Shown piece after piece: positions 5,015 through 27,922 of a stretch of DNA of 27,922 bases. The notes under the pieces were generated by a model that was not told where the DNA came from, did not search any database, and saw only the letters and a program-made list of their open reading frames with translations. The position numbers were made by a program, and so were the translations under genes. Source of the stretch: a virus; IMG/VR virus record IMGVR_UViG_3300029265_000545, positions 1-27,922 of that record, one strand, 5' to 3'. The stretch's first letter is position 1. The number at the start of each line of letters is the position of its first letter.

Positions 5015-5704
5015 ATGAAAAGAGATGGAACACAATTCTACACAAAAGGGGGAAAATTAATTGATATGTCTTCTTGGGATAAAAACAATAATCTTGATGA
5101 GTTGCATAGTAAATATGGGTGGGAAGGAACAATGGCTTATGGAAATTTAATTAATGATGAGTTAAATTTTAAGGGTCCTGGGATTCAACGTGGTGACATA
5201 TATTTAGATTTAGGAGCTAATATAGGAATGTCTTCTTTAAGAGCAGAGATATCAGGAGCTTCAAAACTATACTGCATAGAACCTGATCCCCAAGTTTATG
5301 ATGCTTTAGAAATGAATAAATCTAGTAATTGGGAAATATTTAACATAGCAATTGCTGATTATATAGGATTAATAGAAATACCAAAATGGCCTGATTGGGC
5401 TGATTTAACCCCTCGTGCCTGTTTTACATTGGAACACTTTTTTCAAATAAATAATATCAGCCATATTGATTATATGAAAGTAGATATTGAAGGTCATGAA
5501 ATAAAAATACTACCATCAATACCTAAATCAGTATATGATAAAATATCTAAAGTTTTTATTGAATATCATGAAAATACTCAAATATCTAATGAGGACAGAG
5601 ATAATAATAGGTTAAAGTTTATCAATAGTATTATAAGTAAAGGTTATAATAATCATCACATACACCTTGGATATCACCAAAGTTTTATGTATTTTTGGAA
5701 ATAA
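5015..5704 (+). CDS. FkbM-family SAM-dependent methyltransferase
   Basis: A 229-residue protein with the FkbM methyltransferase pattern: YLDLGANIGMSS (63-74) is the SAM-binding glycine loop, YCIEPDP (86-92) the acidic residue that holds the ribose, and MKVDIEGHEI (154-163) the conserved D-x-E-G-x-E motif. Family members usually O-methylate sugars or polyketide hydroxyls, in bacteria often on surface glycans. The phage substrate is not visible; a glycan on the virion or host surface is plausible. Length is usual for a single-domain enzyme and there is no glycosyltransferase next to it. The ATG overlaps the stop of an 18-codon GTG mini-frame (4962-5018) as ATGA, which could be chance. Confidence 0.85.
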   Translation: MKRDGTQFYTKGGKLIDMSSWDKNNNLDELHSKYGWEGTMAYGNLINDELNFKGPGIQRGDIYLDLGANIGMSSLRAEISGASKLYCIEPDPQVYDALEMNKSSNWEIFNIAIADYIGLIEIPKWPDWADLTPRACFTLEHFFQINNISHIDYMKVDIEGHEIKILPSIPKSVYDKISKVFIEYHENTQISNEDRDNNRLKFINSIISKGYNNHHIHLGYHQSFMYFWK

Positions 5705-18335: not shown

Positions 18336-18358
18336 GGGGGTTCTTAAATTGAACCCCC
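18336..18358 (+). terminator. Rho-independent terminator after phoH
   Basis: GGGGGTTC (18336-18343) pairs with GAACCCCC (18351-18358) around a 7-base loop, followed by TTTTCT; two additional G-T pairs can extend it. It lies 24 bases after the phoH stop. It also shows that the apparent earlier start of the next gene (18349) is inside a terminator. Confidence 0.85.
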
Positions 18359-18367
18359 TTTTCTATA

Positions 18368-18379
18368 TATTTATAACTA
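18368..18379 (+). promoter_or_regulatory. Variant late-promoter-like element TATTTATAACTA
   Basis: Eleven of twelve bases match the palindrome seen at three other genes (C instead of A at position 10). It lies directly after the phoH terminator and 8 bases before the ATG at 18388, the same geometry as the exact copies. Confidence 0.5.
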
Positions 18380-18387
18380 AAAACAAC

Positions 18388-19749
18388 ATGGCATCATTAC
18401 TTAAACCGTCAAATTTTCAAATTAAAATTAAGGAAGAGCATATAGTTAAAGGTATAAAAACACTAAATGAAACCTTCTTTACTTTAGGGAACATTACTAA
18501 TGTTGATAGGAGAATAGTAACCATACCTGGTAGTACTAATATTCATTTATTTGATGTTAATGGTATTAAACCAGCAGCTGGTACATTCCCATCAAGTAGT
18601 ATGAAATATGCCAGAATTTCTAACTTAGATACTTCTTCAAGTTTAGCAGTTTCATTTACATCATCCAAAGCACCAGATGGCCAAGGAGTAACTGGAACAG
18701 ATATATCAGCTTCATTAAATTCTGGAACTGGTAATGGTGGGATAATAGGATTATATGTAAATGTGCCAACAACAGCTTCAGGCGCTGAACCAACTATTAC
18801 AGGTTCAGGAATGACATTAGACATAACAATTTCATCTTCTTTAGAAAATGCTGATTCACTTACCACAAATATAGATGCTACTAATTGTGGTATAGGTAAT
18901 GCATTTTCATTTATAACCCCATTAGAGGGAGGATCAGGAATAAATGCAACAGCATCTGTAACCATTGGAAATTCTGATTTAACAGCACCTTTTGTAAATA
19001 ACGTAACAGTATCTTCTTCAAATGCTTATGGATACCTTGCAGGGGATGTCTTAACAATACCAACAGGCAATTTAGGAATAGGCCAATTAGTAACAAGTCG
19101 AGCATTTACACTTAACGGAAATACACCCACAGTATCAATTAATGTTACAAGAACATTTTCGATTCATACTACAACAGGCTTTGGAGGAACAGCAACCGTT
19201 GTTTCAGTAGGAGGAATTATAACATCTGTAACTGCTATTAATTTAGGTACAGCTTATCAAGCTGCTCAAGTAGTTACAATCTCACAACAAGAACTAACAA
19301 ATCAAGGGTTTGGAACTGTAACAGGTGGAGATTTAACTTTTACTTTAATAGCCGGAGATGTTCAAAACTCATCTCAAGTAACTTTAACAGCCCTAACTAC
19401 ATCAAATGTAATATCAGCTATAACAAGTGCAAAAATAAATCAAGGTGGAAGTGGGTATGAAGTTGGGGAAGAAATAACAGTAGAACCTCTTTATTTAGGA
19501 GGTGCTAATTCCCCAGTATTTCGTTTAGTAGCATCAGATTTTACTGAAAACGGTCCTAGAAGTTATTGGTCAATGAATTTATTACCAACATCATCATTAA
19601 TGTTTTCAAGCCCTGAAGTAACAGGTAGTATGTTTAATGGGTTTTGGGGGCAAGATGTAGAATTTGTTTCAATTATGAGTAATGCACCACTTGCATCAAG
19701 AACAGATGTGGAATATGTAGTAGTTAACTCTGACAATGCAACTAGTTAA
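18388..19749 (+). CDS. Beta-repeat virion structural protein (unknown, between phoH and neck genes)
   Basis: A 453-residue protein read from ATG 18388; the longer frame to 18349 would start inside a terminator. The sequence is Ser/Thr/Gly-rich and predicted mostly beta. Three related beta units are visible: about 205-230 (YGYLAGDVLTIP), 278-325 (GTAYQAAQVVTISQ, then GGDLTFTLIAGD) and 341-385 (GSGYEVGEEITVEP). The same unit, with GGYLAGDTITVSQ and GGDLVITILAAD, lies in the collagen-like protein at the right end. N-terminal residues 1-90 (NIHLFDVNG, YARISNLDTSS) and the last 65 (YWSMNLLP, DVEYVVVNSD) may form one domain split by the repeats. Possible roles are a head decoration or fibre protein. 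No enzyme motif and no T4 counterpart; the late-type box and virion neighbours support a structural role. Confidence 0.7.
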   Translation: MASLLKPSNFQIKIKEEHIVKGIKTLNETFFTLGNITNVDRRIVTIPGSTNIHLFDVNGIKPAAGTFPSSSMKYARISNLDTSSSLAVSFTSSKAPDGQGVTGTDISASLNSGTGNGGIIGLYVNVPTTASGAEPTITGSGMTLDITISSSLENADSLTTNIDATNCGIGNAFSFITPLEGGSGINATASVTIGNSDLTAPFVNNVTVSSSNAYGYLAGDVLTIPTGNLGIGQLVTSRAFTLNGNTPTVSINVTRTFSIHTTTGFGGTATVVSVGGIITSVTAINLGTAYQAAQVVTISQQELTNQGFGTVTGGDLTFTLIAGDVQNSSQVTLTALTTSNVISAITSAKINQGGSGYEVGEEITVEPLYLGGANSPVFRLVASDFTENGPRSYWSMNLLPTSSLMFSSPEVTGSMFNGFWGQDVEFVSIMSNAPLASRTDVEYVVVNSDNATS

Positions 19750-22484: not shown

Positions 22485-25211
22485 ATGGGAATTGTATTAA
22501 GACAAAATAAGGGCTCAGAATTAACCTTTTCAGAAGTAGATGGTAATTTCCAATCTCTTTATTATTCTAGTTCTTTATCAGGAACAAATCTTAGCTTATT
22601 TTATGCAAGTAGTAGTGTTACCCATAGTATAGATTTAGGAGGGGTTATACCTACAGGATCTTTTATGATCACTGGTAGTATAATAGGAAATATAATAACT
22701 TTTACAAAAGCTGATAATACTACATTTGCTATAACTGTACCTTCAAGTGGTGGTGGTGGTGGTGGAAGCGGAATATTTATTCAAACTGGTTCTTTTTATG
22801 CTACTACAAACGATTTACAAGTAACAGGTTCATTTAATGTTTTAGGTAATAATACAATAGATGGGGATATAAGTGCAAGTGGAAACTTATATGTTGAATC
22901 TGTAGCAGAAAATTCAAATACAGATTACAAAACAGTAGTATATAACCCAGTATCTGGGAAATTCTTTAGAACTGGTTCATATGGTGGAGGTGGTGGTGGT
23001 GCTACTACAGATGGTATATTCAAAGTAGTATCAGGTACTGATATATTTGCTACAACCTCTTCATTACAAGTAACAGGAAGTACAATTCAACAATCTCCAT
23101 TTACTGCAACAGGAGCTAATATAACAGCTTCAAATGCTGGAACTGGGGGTGGAACTGATAAATACGCTATGACTGTATCAGAGTCAGTATGGCATTATAC
23201 AGACAATATTGGTGTTCCAACATCAAAAGCATGGAAAACCGATTTAGAAGGTTCATATTTTAACAATTTTGACCATAACACAGACACAGCTGAAATTGTA
23301 AGATTCATGGCTGGTTTACTAAGTGCTTCAGCACCCGACGCAGCACCTAATACACGTACATATGCGAGTTTAGGCGTTATAACCACAAACACAGGAACAG
23401 GCACAGCACCCGTAGGTACTATCCCTCAATCGAGTACTAACGATGTAATTAATTATTTAAATAGTAAGGGGTTTGCAAATGTTGGATCTACAATATTTAA
23501 TGGAATTGGTACAATTTATAATAACTCATCATATTTAAAACAATACACATCTGTAGCAGGTGGTTCTACACTTGTTTCATCAGATTCAACTGATGCTCAA
23601 TTATTTGGGATAGGAAACATAGGACAAGCATTCAATGTATCAGGATCAGATCGATACATATATTACAACAATGCAGCTAAATCACCAACAACTGCTACTT
23701 CCTCTTCAGTTCACATTTTAACAAAAACTGGGGCTGGAACAGCTAATGGTTTAACAGTTGGGAATATATCAACAGGAAACCCATTAATCCCTAATGCTTA
23801 TCAAGATGGAAAATTTGCTAGTATATATCAACAAAATTTATATAATGGTGGGATATCATTAACTAATGTAACATCATCTGGTTATTATTATTTTTCATCA
23901 TCTATAGGTATACAATCAGGTTCATCTAACTATTCAGATTTCTTTGCTCAAAACCAAGAAATATTTTATGCACCCACAACACAAATTAATTCAGGTGTAC
24001 CTACTAATGTCCCCACTATAGGATATTATGGTAGTGCTTCAATAACGGCAACCTCTAGATCACTTTCAGGTGCTCCTTACTTACAAACTGCAACTTGGCA
24101 TTCTTCAGCATCAATTTCAAATGGATTTAACCCCCTATATGCTTCAATTGCAAGATTTGCAAGTGTTGATAAATCTAACTCTCTCATAAGTAAAGCAAAT
24201 GGGGGTACTGGTGTTTATCAAGGAAGTACAAGTGGGGGTACAATTCAAACCTCTAACTTTATATATGACGCAAGTGGAACCACAGCAAGAACAATAGGGA
24301 CAATCCCACAAGAAACAGATTTAGTAAAATTAACTGCTAGTTTATCGTTTAATGCAGGTACTGGTGGTGATGAAAATATTAACCAATCGGGGTTAGGTAT
24401 TACTACATACGATACTCAAGACCAGTGTAGGAATAGGCTTGGAAGTTTACTCTCAGTTAACACTAATACCTTTCAATTTTTTAAACCTGGAACATTTTCT
24501 CAAAATGCATTATCTGGTTCAATGGGTTATTATGGTAGAGCTCAAGGGTATGATGGAAGTGCATTAATTGGAACAACTACATGGACTGAAAACTTCTCAG
24601 GTGAAGATAATAGAATAAAAATTAATAATAATTTACTTGTAGGAACTTATGCTGGTGGTGATAAATTTACCACATCTACCACTGACGAATATATTTTAGA
24701 TCCTCTAGAATTACAAGTAAAACCTGGCCATCTAGTTGAATCTGGGGGCTCATTTGGGTATTGGTCACCTGCTAACCCATCATCAGGAGATTATATTTAT
24801 TATGCTAGAGCATTTCAAAGAAATTTAAATACAGGAGCTGGTAGTGTAACTATGAGTTTAGGTACTACATTACAAGCTTGGAATTCAACTAATAATGGAA
24901 TATCAGCCGCAATAATATTTAAAAGTTCAGGAACTGGGAATTTCACCCCACCAAGAATATACGACCCAACAGCAACCACAGATAACCTTATTGAAACTAG
25001 TATAGCTAATGATGGGTTTAAAAATCCATTCACTGCTAACATAGCTCTTTACGGGAATAGTGGTGGTAGTATAGATGGAAATGACTATAACATGCCTATG
25101 AGGAGTGGAGATGGTATGAGCTTGGATGCTTCAGATAAAGATTTTATAGTTATAATAAGATATAAAAATGATCCCACTCCTATAACTAATATTAACATAA
25201 CAATTGCTTAA
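22485..25211 (+). CDS. Large fibre-like virion protein with glycine linkers
   Basis: A 908-residue Ser/Thr/Gly/Asn-rich protein without catalytic motifs. It starts with LRQNKGSELTFSEVDGNF, an N-terminal motif I recall as common in fibre and neck-appendage proteins of aquatic phages. Two poly-glycine linkers (GGGGGG at 89-94 and 167-172) each introduce a similar module: GIFIQTGSFYATTNDLQVTGS and GIFKVVSGTDIFATTSSLQVTGS, so a segment of about 80 residues has been duplicated. The long remainder (about 210-908) has many beta-type repeats and TGS/SSG turns, and its end is the likely tip or receptor-binding part. It could be a tail fibre, a neck whisker or a head fibre; position after gp15-like gives no decision. 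The late-type box before it suggests high late expression. No chaperone domain is evident. Confidence 0.65.
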   Translation: MGIVLRQNKGSELTFSEVDGNFQSLYYSSSLSGTNLSLFYASSSVTHSIDLGGVIPTGSFMITGSIIGNIITFTKADNTTFAITVPSSGGGGGGSGIFIQTGSFYATTNDLQVTGSFNVLGNNTIDGDISASGNLYVESVAENSNTDYKTVVYNPVSGKFFRTGSYGGGGGGATTDGIFKVVSGTDIFATTSSLQVTGSTIQQSPFTATGANITASNAGTGGGTDKYAMTVSESVWHYTDNIGVPTSKAWKTDLEGSYFNNFDHNTDTAEIVRFMAGLLSASAPDAAPNTRTYASLGVITTNTGTGTAPVGTIPQSSTNDVINYLNSKGFANVGSTIFNGIGTIYNNSSYLKQYTSVAGGSTLVSSDSTDAQLFGIGNIGQAFNVSGSDRYIYYNNAAKSPTTATSSSVHILTKTGAGTANGLTVGNISTGNPLIPNAYQDGKFASIYQQNLYNGGISLTNVTSSGYYYFSSSIGIQSGSSNYSDFFAQNQEIFYAPTTQINSGVPTNVPTIGYYGSASITATSRSLSGAPYLQTATWHSSASISNGFNPLYASIARFASVDKSNSLISKANGGTGVYQGSTSGGTIQTSNFIYDASGTTARTIGTIPQETDLVKLTASLSFNAGTGGDENINQSGLGITTYDTQDQCRNRLGSLLSVNTNTFQFFKPGTFSQNALSGSMGYYGRAQGYDGSALIGTTTWTENFSGEDNRIKINNNLLVGTYAGGDKFTTSTTDEYILDPLELQVKPGHLVESGGSFGYWSPANPSSGDYIYYARAFQRNLNTGAGSVTMSLGTTLQAWNSTNNGISAAIIFKSSGTGNFTPPRIYDPTATTDNLIETSIANDGFKNPFTANIALYGNSGGSIDGNDYNMPMRSGDGMSLDASDKDFIVIIRYKNDPTPITNINITIA

Positions 25212-25229: not shown

Positions 25230-27922
25230 ATGGCATTAGATAAAATAAAAAAATCAAATAGGTTACTTGCTAGTAGGAGGTATACCATGGAGCAGAGCAC
25301 AGATGCTCAAGAAGCATTTACACAAGTTCTTGACATTAATGCCTCTGAAATCTATATTGATCAAGCTGCTATCCCAGCTACTGCATTACCTTACTCAGGA
25401 AGTACTCAAGATGGGGAGTATGTTTTATCTAGTAGCGTTGATTTATTAAGATATTATCATCAAGAACAATTAACACCTTCAAATGTTGTTAATGGTTCAA
25501 AAACAGAAGTATTCTTTTTAATATCGTCATCAGGACATGATCCAGCTGTAGCCGTTACACCTCAAATTATACAAACAGGACAACAAGGAAGTTTTATTTC
25601 CCCAAAATACTCAGACCCAACATTAACAAATTCTGATACAGAAGATATAACACCTGGTTATAATGTAACTATTAGAGTAAATGGTACTAAACAAAACCCA
25701 TCAAATTATCAATTTGACTATAAAACAGGTGTAATTCAATTTACAACACAGGCTGCATCTCCAACAACAGGTGATACAGTTGTATGTTCAGTTTACCAGT
25801 ATGTTGCTAGAACATTAAGTGATAGTGTTGGGGGTGGGAGTGGAGCAGGTTTCCCATTTACAGGATCAGCGCAAATAACAGGTTCAAATGGAGGTTTTGC
25901 AGTAACTGGTAGTAGTACTTTTGATATAAGTGGTACTAATGATGATTTTAAAATAGAATCAGCACCAATTCAAGATTTCCCATTTCTATTAACTTATGCT
26001 ACGGGATCTGGAAAAATAGGATATATTGAAGTATCAAGTGGTACTAGTGGTATAGCAGGTTCAAATGGAACAACAGGCCAATCTGGTAGCTCAGGTTCAA
26101 ATGGTTCATCAGGGCTAAGTGGCTCATCAGGTTCTTCAGGTTTATCAGGAACTTCAGGCTCTTCAGGTTTAGCAGGCTCTTCAGGCTCTTCAGGTACTAC
26201 AGGTTCTTCAGGTTCTTCAGGTTTAGCAGGCTCTTCAGGCTCTTCAGGAACTTCAGGCTTATCAGGTTTAGCAGGCTCCTCAGGCTCTTCAGGTACTACA
26301 GGCTCATCAGGCTCATCAGGTTTAGCAGGTTCATCAGGAGAAAGTGGTATAACGGGTTCTTCAGGCTCTTCGGGTACTTCGGGTACTTCAGGTTTAGAGG
26401 GTTCTTCAGGAGATAGCTTTACATCAGGAACAGCAGGTTCTTCAGGTTCTTCAGGTACAACAGGTACAACAGGTTCATCTGGTTCTTCAGGTGGTGTTGC
26501 TTTGAATGGTCAATTTAAAACATCCCGAGCATTAGATCTCCCAGTTTCAGTAATTACAACAACTGCTAATGGTCAAACAACAGCATTATCAACAACTTCA
26601 AATGGTTCAGGTACAGGGGCAACAATAATAGTTGATAATTTTGAAGTAGGTAACCCAGGTACTTCAATTCAAAATGCAACAATATCAAATGTTGGTGTAG
26701 GTGGGTATTTAGCGGGTGATACAATAACAGTAAGCCAAACTAAAATGAATGTTGATGGTAACATGGGTACTGTAGGTGGTGACTTAGTAATTACTATACT
26801 TGCTGCTGATATGGCATCATCATCACCAACATCAGGTACATCAGGATTAAGTGGTACATCAGGAACTACAGGTACTACAGGAACAAGTGGTTCAGGTGCA
26901 GGTGCCGGTACATCTGGAGAATCAGGAACATCAGGTTCAAGTGCTCCTTCGGGTACAAGTGGTTCATCAGGTACAAATGGTACAACAGGAATAGCAGGAA
27001 CAAATGGTGAAAGTACTGAATCAGGTACAAGTGGTACAGCAGGTTCTGCAGGTACAACAGGAGATGCTGGTGTGAGTGGGGCAAGTGGTACAAGTGGTAC
27101 CGCAGGTTCAGCAGGTACATCAGGAGATACTGGTGTGAGTGGAGCAAGTGGAGCAAGTGGTACAAGTGGTACAGCAGGTTCCTCAGGTACATCAGGAGAT
27201 ACAGGAACAAATGGCGAAAGCACAGAATCAGGTACAAGTGGTTCTTCAGGAACTAGTGGTACAACAGGTGTTATAGGAACAAATGGCGAAAGCACAGAAT
27301 CAGGTACAAGTGGTACAAATGGTACAAATGGTACAACAGGAGTAGCAGGAACAAATGGTGAAAGTGCCGAATCAGGTACAAGTGGTGCTTCAGGTACAAA
27401 TGGTACATCAGGAGTAGCAGGAACAAATGGCGAAAGTGCCCCTTCAGGTACAAGTGGTGCTTCAGGTACAAATGGCACATCAGGAGTAGCAGGAACAAAT
27501 GGCGAAAGCACAGAATCAGGTACAAGTGGTTCTTCAGGTACAAATGGTACATCCGGAGTAGCAGGAACAAATGGCGAAAGCACAGAATCAGGTACAAGTG
27601 GTACAAATGGTACAAATGGTACAACAGGAATAGCAGGAACATCAGGTTCAAGTGCTCCTTCAGGTACAAATGGTACAAGTGGTACAAACGGCACAACCGG
27701 AGCATTAGGTACAAGTGGTGAAAGTGGAGCAGATGGTACAAGTGGTACAAATGGTACAAATGGTACAACCGGAGCATTAGGTACAAGTGGTGAAAGTGGA
27801 GCAGATGGTACAAGTGGTGCTTCGGGTACAAATGGTACATCAGGAGTAGCAGGAACAAATGGCGAAAGTGCCCCTTCAGGTACAAGTGGTGCTTCAGGTA
27901 CAAATGGCACATCAGGAGTAGC
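25230..27922 (+). CDS. Collagen-like (Gly-X-Y) fibre protein, 3' end outside window
   Basis: An open frame from ATG 25230 to the right edge (at least 897 codons, no stop). Residues 1-270 form an N-terminal virion-type domain (ASRRYTMEQSTDAQEAF near the start, then beta-rich sequence, GGGSGAG linker). Two collagen-like regions follow. The first (26040-26495) is mostly GSS, GLA and GTT triplets. The second (26835 to the edge) is mainly GTS, GTN, GVA and GES in a 72-bp repeat. They are separated by a globular insert (26496-26834) that resembles the beta repeat of the protein at 18388. Phage collagen-like proteins are usually trimeric fibre shafts, so this is probably a tail or head fibre. Lack of Pro makes a classical stable triple helix less sure. 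A strong internal Shine-Dalgarno (AGGAGG at 25275-25280) precedes in-frame ATG 25287, an alternative start. Confidence 0.85.
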   Translation, partial: MALDKIKKSNRLLASRRYTMEQSTDAQEAFTQVLDINASEIYIDQAAIPATALPYSGSTQDGEYVLSSSVDLLRYYHQEQLTPSNVVNGSKTEVFFLISSSGHDPAVAVTPQIIQTGQQGSFISPKYSDPTLTNSDTEDITPGYNVTIRVNGTKQNPSNYQFDYKTGVIQFTTQAASPTTGDTVVCSVYQYVARTLSDSVGGGSGAGFPFTGSAQITGSNGGFAVTGSSTFDISGTNDDFKIESAPIQDFPFLLTYATGSGKIGYIEVSSGTSGIAGSNGTTGQSGSSGSNGSSGLSGSSGSSGLSGTSGSSGLAGSSGSSGTTGSSGSSGLAGSSGSSGTSGLSGLAGSSGSSGTTGSSGSSGLAGSSGESGITGSSGSSGTSGTSGLEGSSGDSFTSGTAGSSGSSGTTGTTGSSGSSGGVALNGQFKTSRALDLPVSVITTTANGQTTALSTTSNGSGTGATIIVDNFEVGNPGTSIQNATISNVGVGGYLAGDTITVSQTKMNVDGNMGTVGGDLVITILAADMASSSPTSGTSGLSGTSGTTGTTGTSGSGAGAGTSGESGTSGSSAPSGTSGSSGTNGTTGIAGTNGESTESGTSGTAGSAGTTGDAGVSGASGTSGTAGSAGTSGDTGVSGASGASGTSGTAGSSGTSGDTGTNGESTESGTSGSSGTSGTTGVIGTNGESTESGTSGTNGTNGTTGVAGTNGESAESGTSGASGTNGTSGVAGTNGESAPSGTSGASGTNGTSGVAGTNGESTESGTSGSSGTNGTSGVAGTNGESTESGTSGTNGTNGTTGIAGTSGSSAPSGTNGTSGTNGTTGALGTSGESGADGTSGTNGTNGTTGALGTSGESGADGTSGASGTNGTSGVAGTNGESAPSGTSGASGTNGTSGV
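26040..26495 (+). repeat. First collagen-like repeat region (GSS/GLA triplets)
   Basis: Gly-X-Y coding repeats built mainly from TCTTCAGG- and TCATCAGG-type triplets. Larger units begin with Gly-Leu-Ala at 26166, 26220, 26265 and 26319, spaced 54, 45 and 54 bases, so whole triplets were gained or lost. One interruption (GDSFTSG near 26412) breaks the triplet pattern. Confidence 0.85.
26934..27922 (+). repeat. 72-bp tandem repeat encoding 24-residue collagen-like units
   Basis: Unit starts (Gly codon) fall at 26934, 27006, 27078, 27141, 27213, 27285, 27357, 27429, 27501, 27573, 27645, 27717, 27789 and 27861, all 72 bases apart except one 63-base unit (27078-27140). A typical unit reads GES-TES-GTS-GTN-GTN-GTT-GVA-GTN. 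In most units the second triplet lacks Gly (TES, AES or APS). The copy at 27429-27490 is identical to that at 27861-27922. The array runs off the window. Confidence 0.9.

Follow-up and report, generated by a model that had tools for sequence, protein, structure and literature searches.

In human collagen, one missing glycine can be enough to cause disease. What, then, is to be made of a phage collagen that gives up a glycine about every 24 residues? The question is raised by the virus record IMGVR_UViG_3300029265_000545, all 27,922 bases of which (the window) were used here, and whose 3' end falls within a long open reading frame (ORF) for a collagen-like fibre protein. This protein scores 209.8 bits against Pfam Collagen (PF01391; cut-off 27.2), and its Gly-X-Y triplets are continuous apart from phased exceptions. 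With genes for the terminase (TerL), gp20 portal, gp23 capsid, S77 prohead protease and PhoH, the phage of the window is a T4-like myovirus. Judged by capsid protein, the closest named phages are Flavobacterium phage immuto (Immutovirus, 58%) and Microcystis phage Mel-JY01 (51.5%).

A sequence-only reading of the window had described fourteen unit starts spaced by 72 bases, apart from one 63-base unit, with TES, AES or APS as the second triplet of most units and almost no proline. Reading the second collagen array of the fibre (Table 1) triplet by triplet over 26934-27922 bears this out. Units start at 26934, 27006, 27069, 27141, 27213 and then every 72 bases up to 27861, with a single 63-base step, and the second triplet lacks glycine in 10 of the 14 units (in order APS, TES, TES, TES, AES, APS, TES, TES, APS, APS). 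All ten breaks stay in triplet register, and proline in this array is confined to the APS triplets. A further break of this type, GDS-FTS, occurs in the first array at 26418-26426. Tandem Repeats Finder returned a period of 72 with 10.6 copies at 27159-27922, and a DNA pattern of two breaks eight triplets apart matched seven times in the window vs. 0 in 100 shuffles. The four-fold third-base identity in the window is 0.715 at eight triplets vs. 0.527 at other lags, a strong synonymous signal. The units are thus partly recent DNA copies, and the regularity inside the window alone proves little.

Relatives were gathered by a scan with the N-terminal anchor domain of the fibre alone, irrespective of breaks, which gave 22 loci. 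Before counting we dropped near-identical copies (L006, L011, L012, L014, L015 and L025), a fragment without a shaft (L019) and L021-L024, which have no collagen. This left 12 distinct collagen-bearing anchor proteins, including that of the window: the comparison across relatives called for by the sequence-only reading shows ten to be broken and two (L017 and L020) unbroken. In the ten broken proteins 445 of 3,914 triplets, about one in nine, lack glycine. This count, like the 12 Gly-less triplets of the window, includes the AGA of a Gly-rich GSG-AGA linker at 26889-26906, which differs from the cassette breaks described below. The complete relatives L005, L008 and L013 (2,542, 2,467 and 3,007 residues) have shafts of 2,105, 1,997 and 2,531 residues, each in one register, and the L018 shaft has one register shift. 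At the triple-helix rise of 0.286 nm per residue, these three residue counts correspond to shafts of ~0.57-0.72 micrometre. One lost glycine per unit, as first proposed, holds for the window and not for L005, L007 and L008, which also have double Gly-less runs (13, 34 and 22, respectively). Over the 3,710 Gly triplets of the 12 proteins, proline makes up 0.2% at Y and is absent at X, so that the usual proline stabiliser of collagen is missing. L005 and L006 are the same 2,542-residue protein from two assemblies, as are L014 and L015 (3,007 residues), with L013 one residue different. Such identical proteins from separate assemblies rule out an assembly artefact, which had been entertained at the outset, as the cause of the breaks as a class.

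Substitute residues, context and spacing are all non-random in the relatives, in line with the first view that the interruptions are not random decay. At the 445 breaks glycine is replaced by A (244), N (105), K (39), S (25), R (13), T (10), Q (4), E (3), F (1) and D (1). V, C and W are never found among them, though expected from single base changes, and 180 of the 445 substitutes lie two base changes away from any Gly codon. Serine precedes the break in 430 of 445 cases, compared with 2,184 of 3,469 other Y positions; the break triplet ends in Ser in 428 and has Thr in the middle in 301. The ten proteins thereby share a fixed cassette context, G-x-S-Z-x-S-G, with NTS as the second commonest break triplet (101/445). 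Because the units are related, Fisher values for this context overstate its significance. Successive breaks are exactly eight triplets apart in 183 of 365 intervals, where 17.7 would be expected at random; these spacing statistics are taken from the anchor family only, because the other loci discussed below were chosen by break spacings of 8, 7 and 9. Within the 183 eight-triplet units, X and Y of the three triplets that follow the break are mostly Ser, Thr and Asn, and X residues that are charged or hydrophobic cluster four to one triplets before it. At a lag of eight triplets L007 and L008 have four-fold third-base identities of 0.558 and 0.527 (0.576 and 0.540 at other lags), with amino-acid identities of 0.544 and 0.510 (vs. 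0.329 and 0.327). The synonymous 72-base signal is moderately raised in L013 (0.611 vs. 0.539) and L016 (0.564 vs. 0.498), slight in L005 and not clear in L004 and L018. Since the period persists in L007 and L008 without a synonymous trace, the regularity of the family needs no recent duplication, unlike that of the window, which is partly due to it. These patterns support the view that selection keeps the Gly-less cassettes, and make decay unlikely.

Two glycosylation motifs were considered as explanations of the breaks and rejected. N-x-S/T sequons fit only 105 of the 445 breaks, and D-[ST]-[AILMTV], the O-glycosylation motif of Bacteroidota, only 4.

Are such breaks common in phage collagens? 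A first control scanned for 14 unbroken Gly triplets (at least 120 stretches), a criterion that favours unbroken shafts; among the matches listed, 122 of 131 collagen regions had no Gly-less triplet, and 16 of 6,328 triplets were Gly-less. A fairer control, requiring seven Gly triplets, any triplet and seven more Gly triplets (at least 120 stretches), agrees with it. The free middle triplet was Gly-less at 24 of 4,965 places in 119 phage collagen loci among the matches listed, 17 of the 24 lying in L147, compared with 197 of 583 places in eight anchor-family loci. In the Gly-Thr-Ser-rich shafts of the huge phage LR756501 (735 kb), which are 246, 307 and 240 triplets long, a single one of the 793 triplets is Gly-less, so neither length nor lack of proline forces breaks. 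Similar cassettes do occur on other anchors, in 21 further loci with 1,092 breaks, after loci on the same contigs (L094 and L098) had been dropped. These loci were selected for Ser before at least 80% of breaks, and the 1,050 of 1,092 breaks preceded by Ser are hence no evidence; the break triplet ends in Ser, a trait not selected for, in 1,012 of 1,092. At least ten breaks were present in 38 of 184 further loci among the matches listed. Scanning 84,980 bacterial and archaeal species for Thr-middle cassettes eight triplets apart, a search that misses the TES/AES/APS form, gave four doubtful stretches, short or of low complexity.

Other collagens seen along the way have features of their own. 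In L188, L214, L239, L284, L304, L329 and L136, Ala/Asn-rich glycine arrays have a Gly-less triplet mostly every nine triplets, with Gly at the Y position before it; this is a different pattern, and arrays of this kind were left out of the analysis. L283 (972-14567) has an open frame of at least 4,532 residues, cut by the contig end, at a locus with 251 Gly-less among 1,417 collagen triplets. LR756501.1 contains 72 Pfam collagen matches, at ~103-124 kb, 257-263 kb, 392-421 kb and 586 kb, in frames of up to 3,488 residues. In PP395634.1 (Mel-JY01), a plus-strand Ser/Thr-rich collagen frame at 1-2298 overlies the deposited minus-strand genes 1-651 and 739-2298; the annotation of the Mel-JY01 fibre gene seems to be wrong, and the gene appears truncated where the linear record starts.

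The natural reading of the window protein is a trimeric tail-fibre shaft, as domains of its relatives suggest. The complete fibres L005, L008 and L013 share their C-terminal domain with immuto gp047, annotated 'tail fiber protein', and L075 has tail sheath and tail tube genes on the contig of its fibre. The assignment as tail fibre therefore applies to relatives and not to the truncated window gene, whose PHROG tail-fibre matches fall on the repeats and lend weak support. In L021 the same anchor carries YadA-head repeats, and in L131 and L044 the broken shaft is closed by a Peptidase_S74 chaperone domain. YadA_head and Peptidase_S74 domains belong to trimeric fibres, and these partners thus support a trimeric fibre.

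Glycosyltransferases are found among the genes that follow complete broken-shaft genes. We searched 28 broken-shaft records and the window, all 11 records with unbroken Ser/Thr-rich shafts, and 20 of 57 other unbroken collagens plus L393, the last group picked by eye, mainly for long contigs. A record was taken as informative if its sequence ran on for 4 kb or more past the collagen; 10 of the 28 broken-shaft records and the window fall below this. Among informative records, a PF00534 transferase lies within 12 kb, always on the downstream side, in 16 of 18 with broken shafts and in 2 of 7 with unbroken Ser/Thr-rich shafts; other collagens have one in 2 of 18. One gene of L075 belongs to TIGR04414 (hepto_Aah_TibC), with 295 bits against a curated cut-off of 200, the family of TibC/Aah-type protein O-heptosyltransferases (BAHT). 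Counting matches anywhere in the record, 17 of 18 informative broken-shaft records exceed this cut-off, as do 4 of the 7 with unbroken Ser/Thr-rich shafts and none of the 18 with other collagens; whole tallies are 18/29 (counting the window, which has no match), 4/11 and 0/21. Beyond these tallies, partial matches occur in L406, at the contig end (unbroken), and weakly in L414 (other collagens). The gap between BAHT gene and collagen is 1.7-13 kb in 16 of these 17 informative broken-shaft records, the values for L050, L079 and L085 being upper limits, since the shaft extends past the measured stretch; in the four unbroken records with a BAHT it is 2.7, 4.9, 14 (upstream) and 42 kb. Same-anchor phages without collagen have no TIGR04414 match (0/3: L021, L023 and L024).

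Among 50,697 named phage records, tblastn returned BAHT homologues in four records, representing three distinct phages. Mel-JY01 has one ~5 kb from its Ser/Thr-rich unbroken collagen frame, and LR756501 combines a homologue with many Ser/Thr-rich collagens, one of them ~5 kb off. The L075 enzyme matches the solved TibC structure (4rap) at 3.7e-56, and Asp-110, Lys-230, Trp-305 and the iron-finger cysteines 339, 342, 358 and 370 are kept in all 21 aligned sequences. TibC is described as a protein heptosyltransferase of repetitive adhesins, and BAHT genes as frequent neighbours of their substrate gene; in a TibA fragment, the residues modified by TibC were serines, one of which lies in an N-T-S context, and no threonines (PMC4358343). 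A separate pair of PF00534 genes (frames of ~480 and 440 residues) lies far from the fibre in G004, G005, G006, G022, G027, G031, G061 and NC_055915.1 (~50 kb), and recurs in collagen-free phages, G061 and immuto among them.

With moderate confidence, we read the fibre as a proline-free collagen-like shaft to which the phage adds O-linked sugars, and in which the phased Gly-less cassettes serve as joints or carry sugar. The triple helix of three chains would run from the N-terminal anchor to a C-terminal tip, expected past the end of the contig. One glycine, or sometimes two in relatives, gives way about every 24 residues, mostly to Ala, Asn, Lys, Ser or Thr, with the register kept. O-glycosylation of the Ser/Thr-rich shaft would most likely take place during assembly, through phage enzymes encoded on the downstream side, namely a BAHT, GT-B transferases and, in some cases, an FkbM methyltransferase. 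The cassettes would be locally unwound points at which the shaft is jointed and serines probably become accessible to the enzyme, and the sugar would make up for the missing proline. The sequences show the repeat, its register, its conservation, the cassette context and, in relatives, the neighbouring enzyme genes; trimer, glycosylation and the part played by the cassettes are inferred from them. Glycosylation and breaks may also be two separate adaptations. More tentatively, the fibre can be seen as a glyco-collagen: heptose or a different sugar, set on serines by a TibC-type phage enzyme, would stabilise a proline-free triple helix, and the cassettes phased every 24 residues would be docking and modification points for this enzyme along a shaft of at least 0.6 micrometre.

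Several points weigh against a glycosylated trimer with cassettes as sugar sites. The window's 27,922 bases gave no BAHT match, the record ending inside the fibre, before the expected place of the enzyme and the tip, and the middle residue of its array-2 cassettes is Glu or Pro, not Thr. L130 has no BAHT in 7.3 kb of downstream sequence, L112 has its BAHT 43 kb from the collagen, and the huge phage LR756504 is a counter-example with a BAHT and without any Pfam collagen. While 10 of 17 BAHT genes lie on the fibre strand, 7 (L044, L056, L105, L112, L126, L240 and L299) lie on the opposite one, so there is no common operon in these records. The sugar-binding Arg-286 is kept in only 11 of 21 aligned sequences, and the sugar may therefore differ. 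TSG and SSG sites are abundant outside the breaks. The possible glycosylation raised by the sequence-only reading finds unexpected support in genomes, through the BAHT family in the records of relatives. The same enzyme accompanies unbroken Ser/Thr-rich shafts, so it does not explain the breaks. The association of BAHT with broken rather than unbroken Ser/Thr-rich shafts has p=0.053, a value that, like the other Fisher values, is too small since the records cannot be counted as separate lineages; lineage confounds all of these comparisons.

The cassettes might instead be mechanical joints only, bending a shaft of ~0.6-0.7 micrometre, while the transferases act on the host surface or another virion protein. 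Shafts of up to 2,531 residues fit such joints, and so does the rise of break frequency with length (Spearman 0.50 in 58 imino-poor Ser/Thr-rich regions, a sample that is biased because some of its loci had been picked up by their break spacing). In mannan-binding lectin, too, triple-helical peptides bend at an interruption (PMC9898670). We nevertheless consider joints alone unlikely: pure joints need neither a Ser-flanked context nor a BAHT-family enzyme, and the long shafts of LR756501 do practically without breaks. Fixing the register of the chains is an improbable role. Aligned Gly-less triplets would stop three near-identical Gly-Thr-Ser chains from slipping, and after shifts of two to six triplets almost no breaks coincide (0.00-0.01 in L013, 0.00 in L008); the charged and hydrophobic X residues gathered before the break would fit this too. 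However, a shift of eight triplets would be cheap, as 53-70% of breaks still coincide in L005, L007, L008, L013 and L016, and unbroken Ser/Thr shafts manage without such a lock. It is more improbable still that the breaks are a neutral by-product, a tolerated Gly-less unit copied by 72-base tandem duplication. The synonymous signals of the window, L013 and L016 are what such copying would leave. Against it stand the period of L007 and L008, which survives without this trace, the substitutes two steps from Gly together with the missing V, C and W, and the almost unbroken state of the sampled phage collagens.

How does the phage fibre compare with known systems? Interruptions in animal collagens are irregular and often shift the register, whereas the phage breaks are in register and mostly eight triplets apart. 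Type IV collagen, C1q and mannan-binding lectin share with the phage shafts the presence of Gly-X-Y interruptions, and theirs bend or loosen the helix (PMC9898670). Phage-encoded trimeric collagen shafts between globular ends are also known from the E. coli prophage proteins EPclA-D, whose lengths vary by multiples of three (PMC3368898). According to that source, these proteins have a single interruption of another kind, and the recombinant form is unglycosylated; here we see dozens of phased Gly-less triplets, almost no Pro and up to 2,531 residues. Like the TibC/Aah enzymes, those near the fibres exceed the curated cut-off, keep the catalytic base and iron finger and have a long repetitive protein encoded nearby, and the known sites are serines. 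The known substrates are beta-helical bacterial autotransporters (PMC4358343), whereas here the nearby protein is a phage collagen, Arg-286 is kept in 11 of 21 sequences and the gene lies on the other strand in 7 of 17 records. The immuto genome, while sharing the C-terminal domain through gp047, has neither collagen nor BAHT. The LR756501 fibres are alike in being long and Gly-Thr-Ser-rich in a phage with a BAHT, and unlike in their practically unbroken shaft. The open-access literature searched, where absence is no proof, yielded no description of a phage collagen with phased loss of glycine, nor of a BAHT from a phage.

The layout of the window gene is given in Table 1. A Pfam scan of its protein returned no domain besides Collagen; there were no PfN or PfC domains, and the breaks consist of TES, AES or APS. 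The anchor had no match in PHROG, and tblastn of the fibre and its anchor against named phages gave none either; DNA similarity brought up only LR756501 and LR756503. Predicted structures had a mean predicted local distance difference test score of 37.2 for the anchor and 49.3 for the C-terminal domain, too poor for a fold search, and profile searches of these two domains against solved structures gave three weak, short matches and none, respectively.

Table 1. Positions in the window of the fibre gene, its parts and two further genes.
Feature	Position	Strand	Basis
Long collagen-like fibre gene, 3' end open at contig end	25230..27922 (ORF 25230-27920, 897 residues)	+	ORF, translation, Pfam Collagen
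N-terminal anchor domain, residues 1-268	25230..26033	+	Matches in 22 loci, on different shafts
Collagen array 1, GSS/GTS-rich, single break	26040..26492	+	Triplet-by-triplet reading
Gly-less triplet FTS following GDS, in array 1	26418..26426	+	Triplet-by-triplet reading
Small non-collagen domain separating both arrays	26493..26834	+	Triplet reading, relatives
Collagen array 2, 24-residue units	26835..27922	+	Tandem Repeats Finder, triplet reading
Gly-less triplet APS	26943..26951	+	
Gly-less triplet TES	27015..27023	+	
Two units without break (starts 27069, 27141)	27069..27212	+	
Gly-less triplet TES	27222..27230	+	
Gly-less triplet TES	27294..27302	+	
Gly-less triplet AES	27366..27374	+	
Gly-less triplet APS	27438..27446	+	
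Gly-less triplet TES	27510..27518	+	
Gly-less triplet TES	27582..27590	+	
Gly-less triplet APS	27654..27662	+	
Two units keeping Gly, GES-GAD (starts 27717, 27789)	27717..27860	+	
Gly-less triplet APS	27870..27878	+	
FkbM-family methyltransferase	5015..5704	+	Homologue (54%) of a methyltransferase located amid the transferase genes next to the broken L075 fibre
Adjoining protein, kept in same-anchor relatives	22485..25211	+	Sequence comparison

The FkbM methyltransferase of the window may be linked to its fibre. In L020 (10001-14887), a window-type anchor is followed by Gly-Thr-Ser arrays that are short and unbroken and then by a domain with homology to the adjoining window protein, an arrangement that reflects module shuffling among fibre genes. 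By eye, a motif of the GYLAGD...GGDL type seems common to the window protein at 18349-19749 and the domain between the arrays. Opposite the repeats, on the minus strand at 26669-27922, runs an antisense open frame of 417 residues, which we take as a mechanical effect of codon use.

The phage shafts are a natural and genetically simple system in which to study the tolerance of a triple helix to periodic defects and the stability of collagen that lacks proline. The link to a heptosyltransferase predicts sugars on serine, and glycosylated fibres are possibly a wider feature of large environmental phages, with a bearing on receptor binding. If true, glyco-collagen would be a collagen stabilised without proline or hydroxyproline, and would add a BAHT substrate outside the autotransporters.

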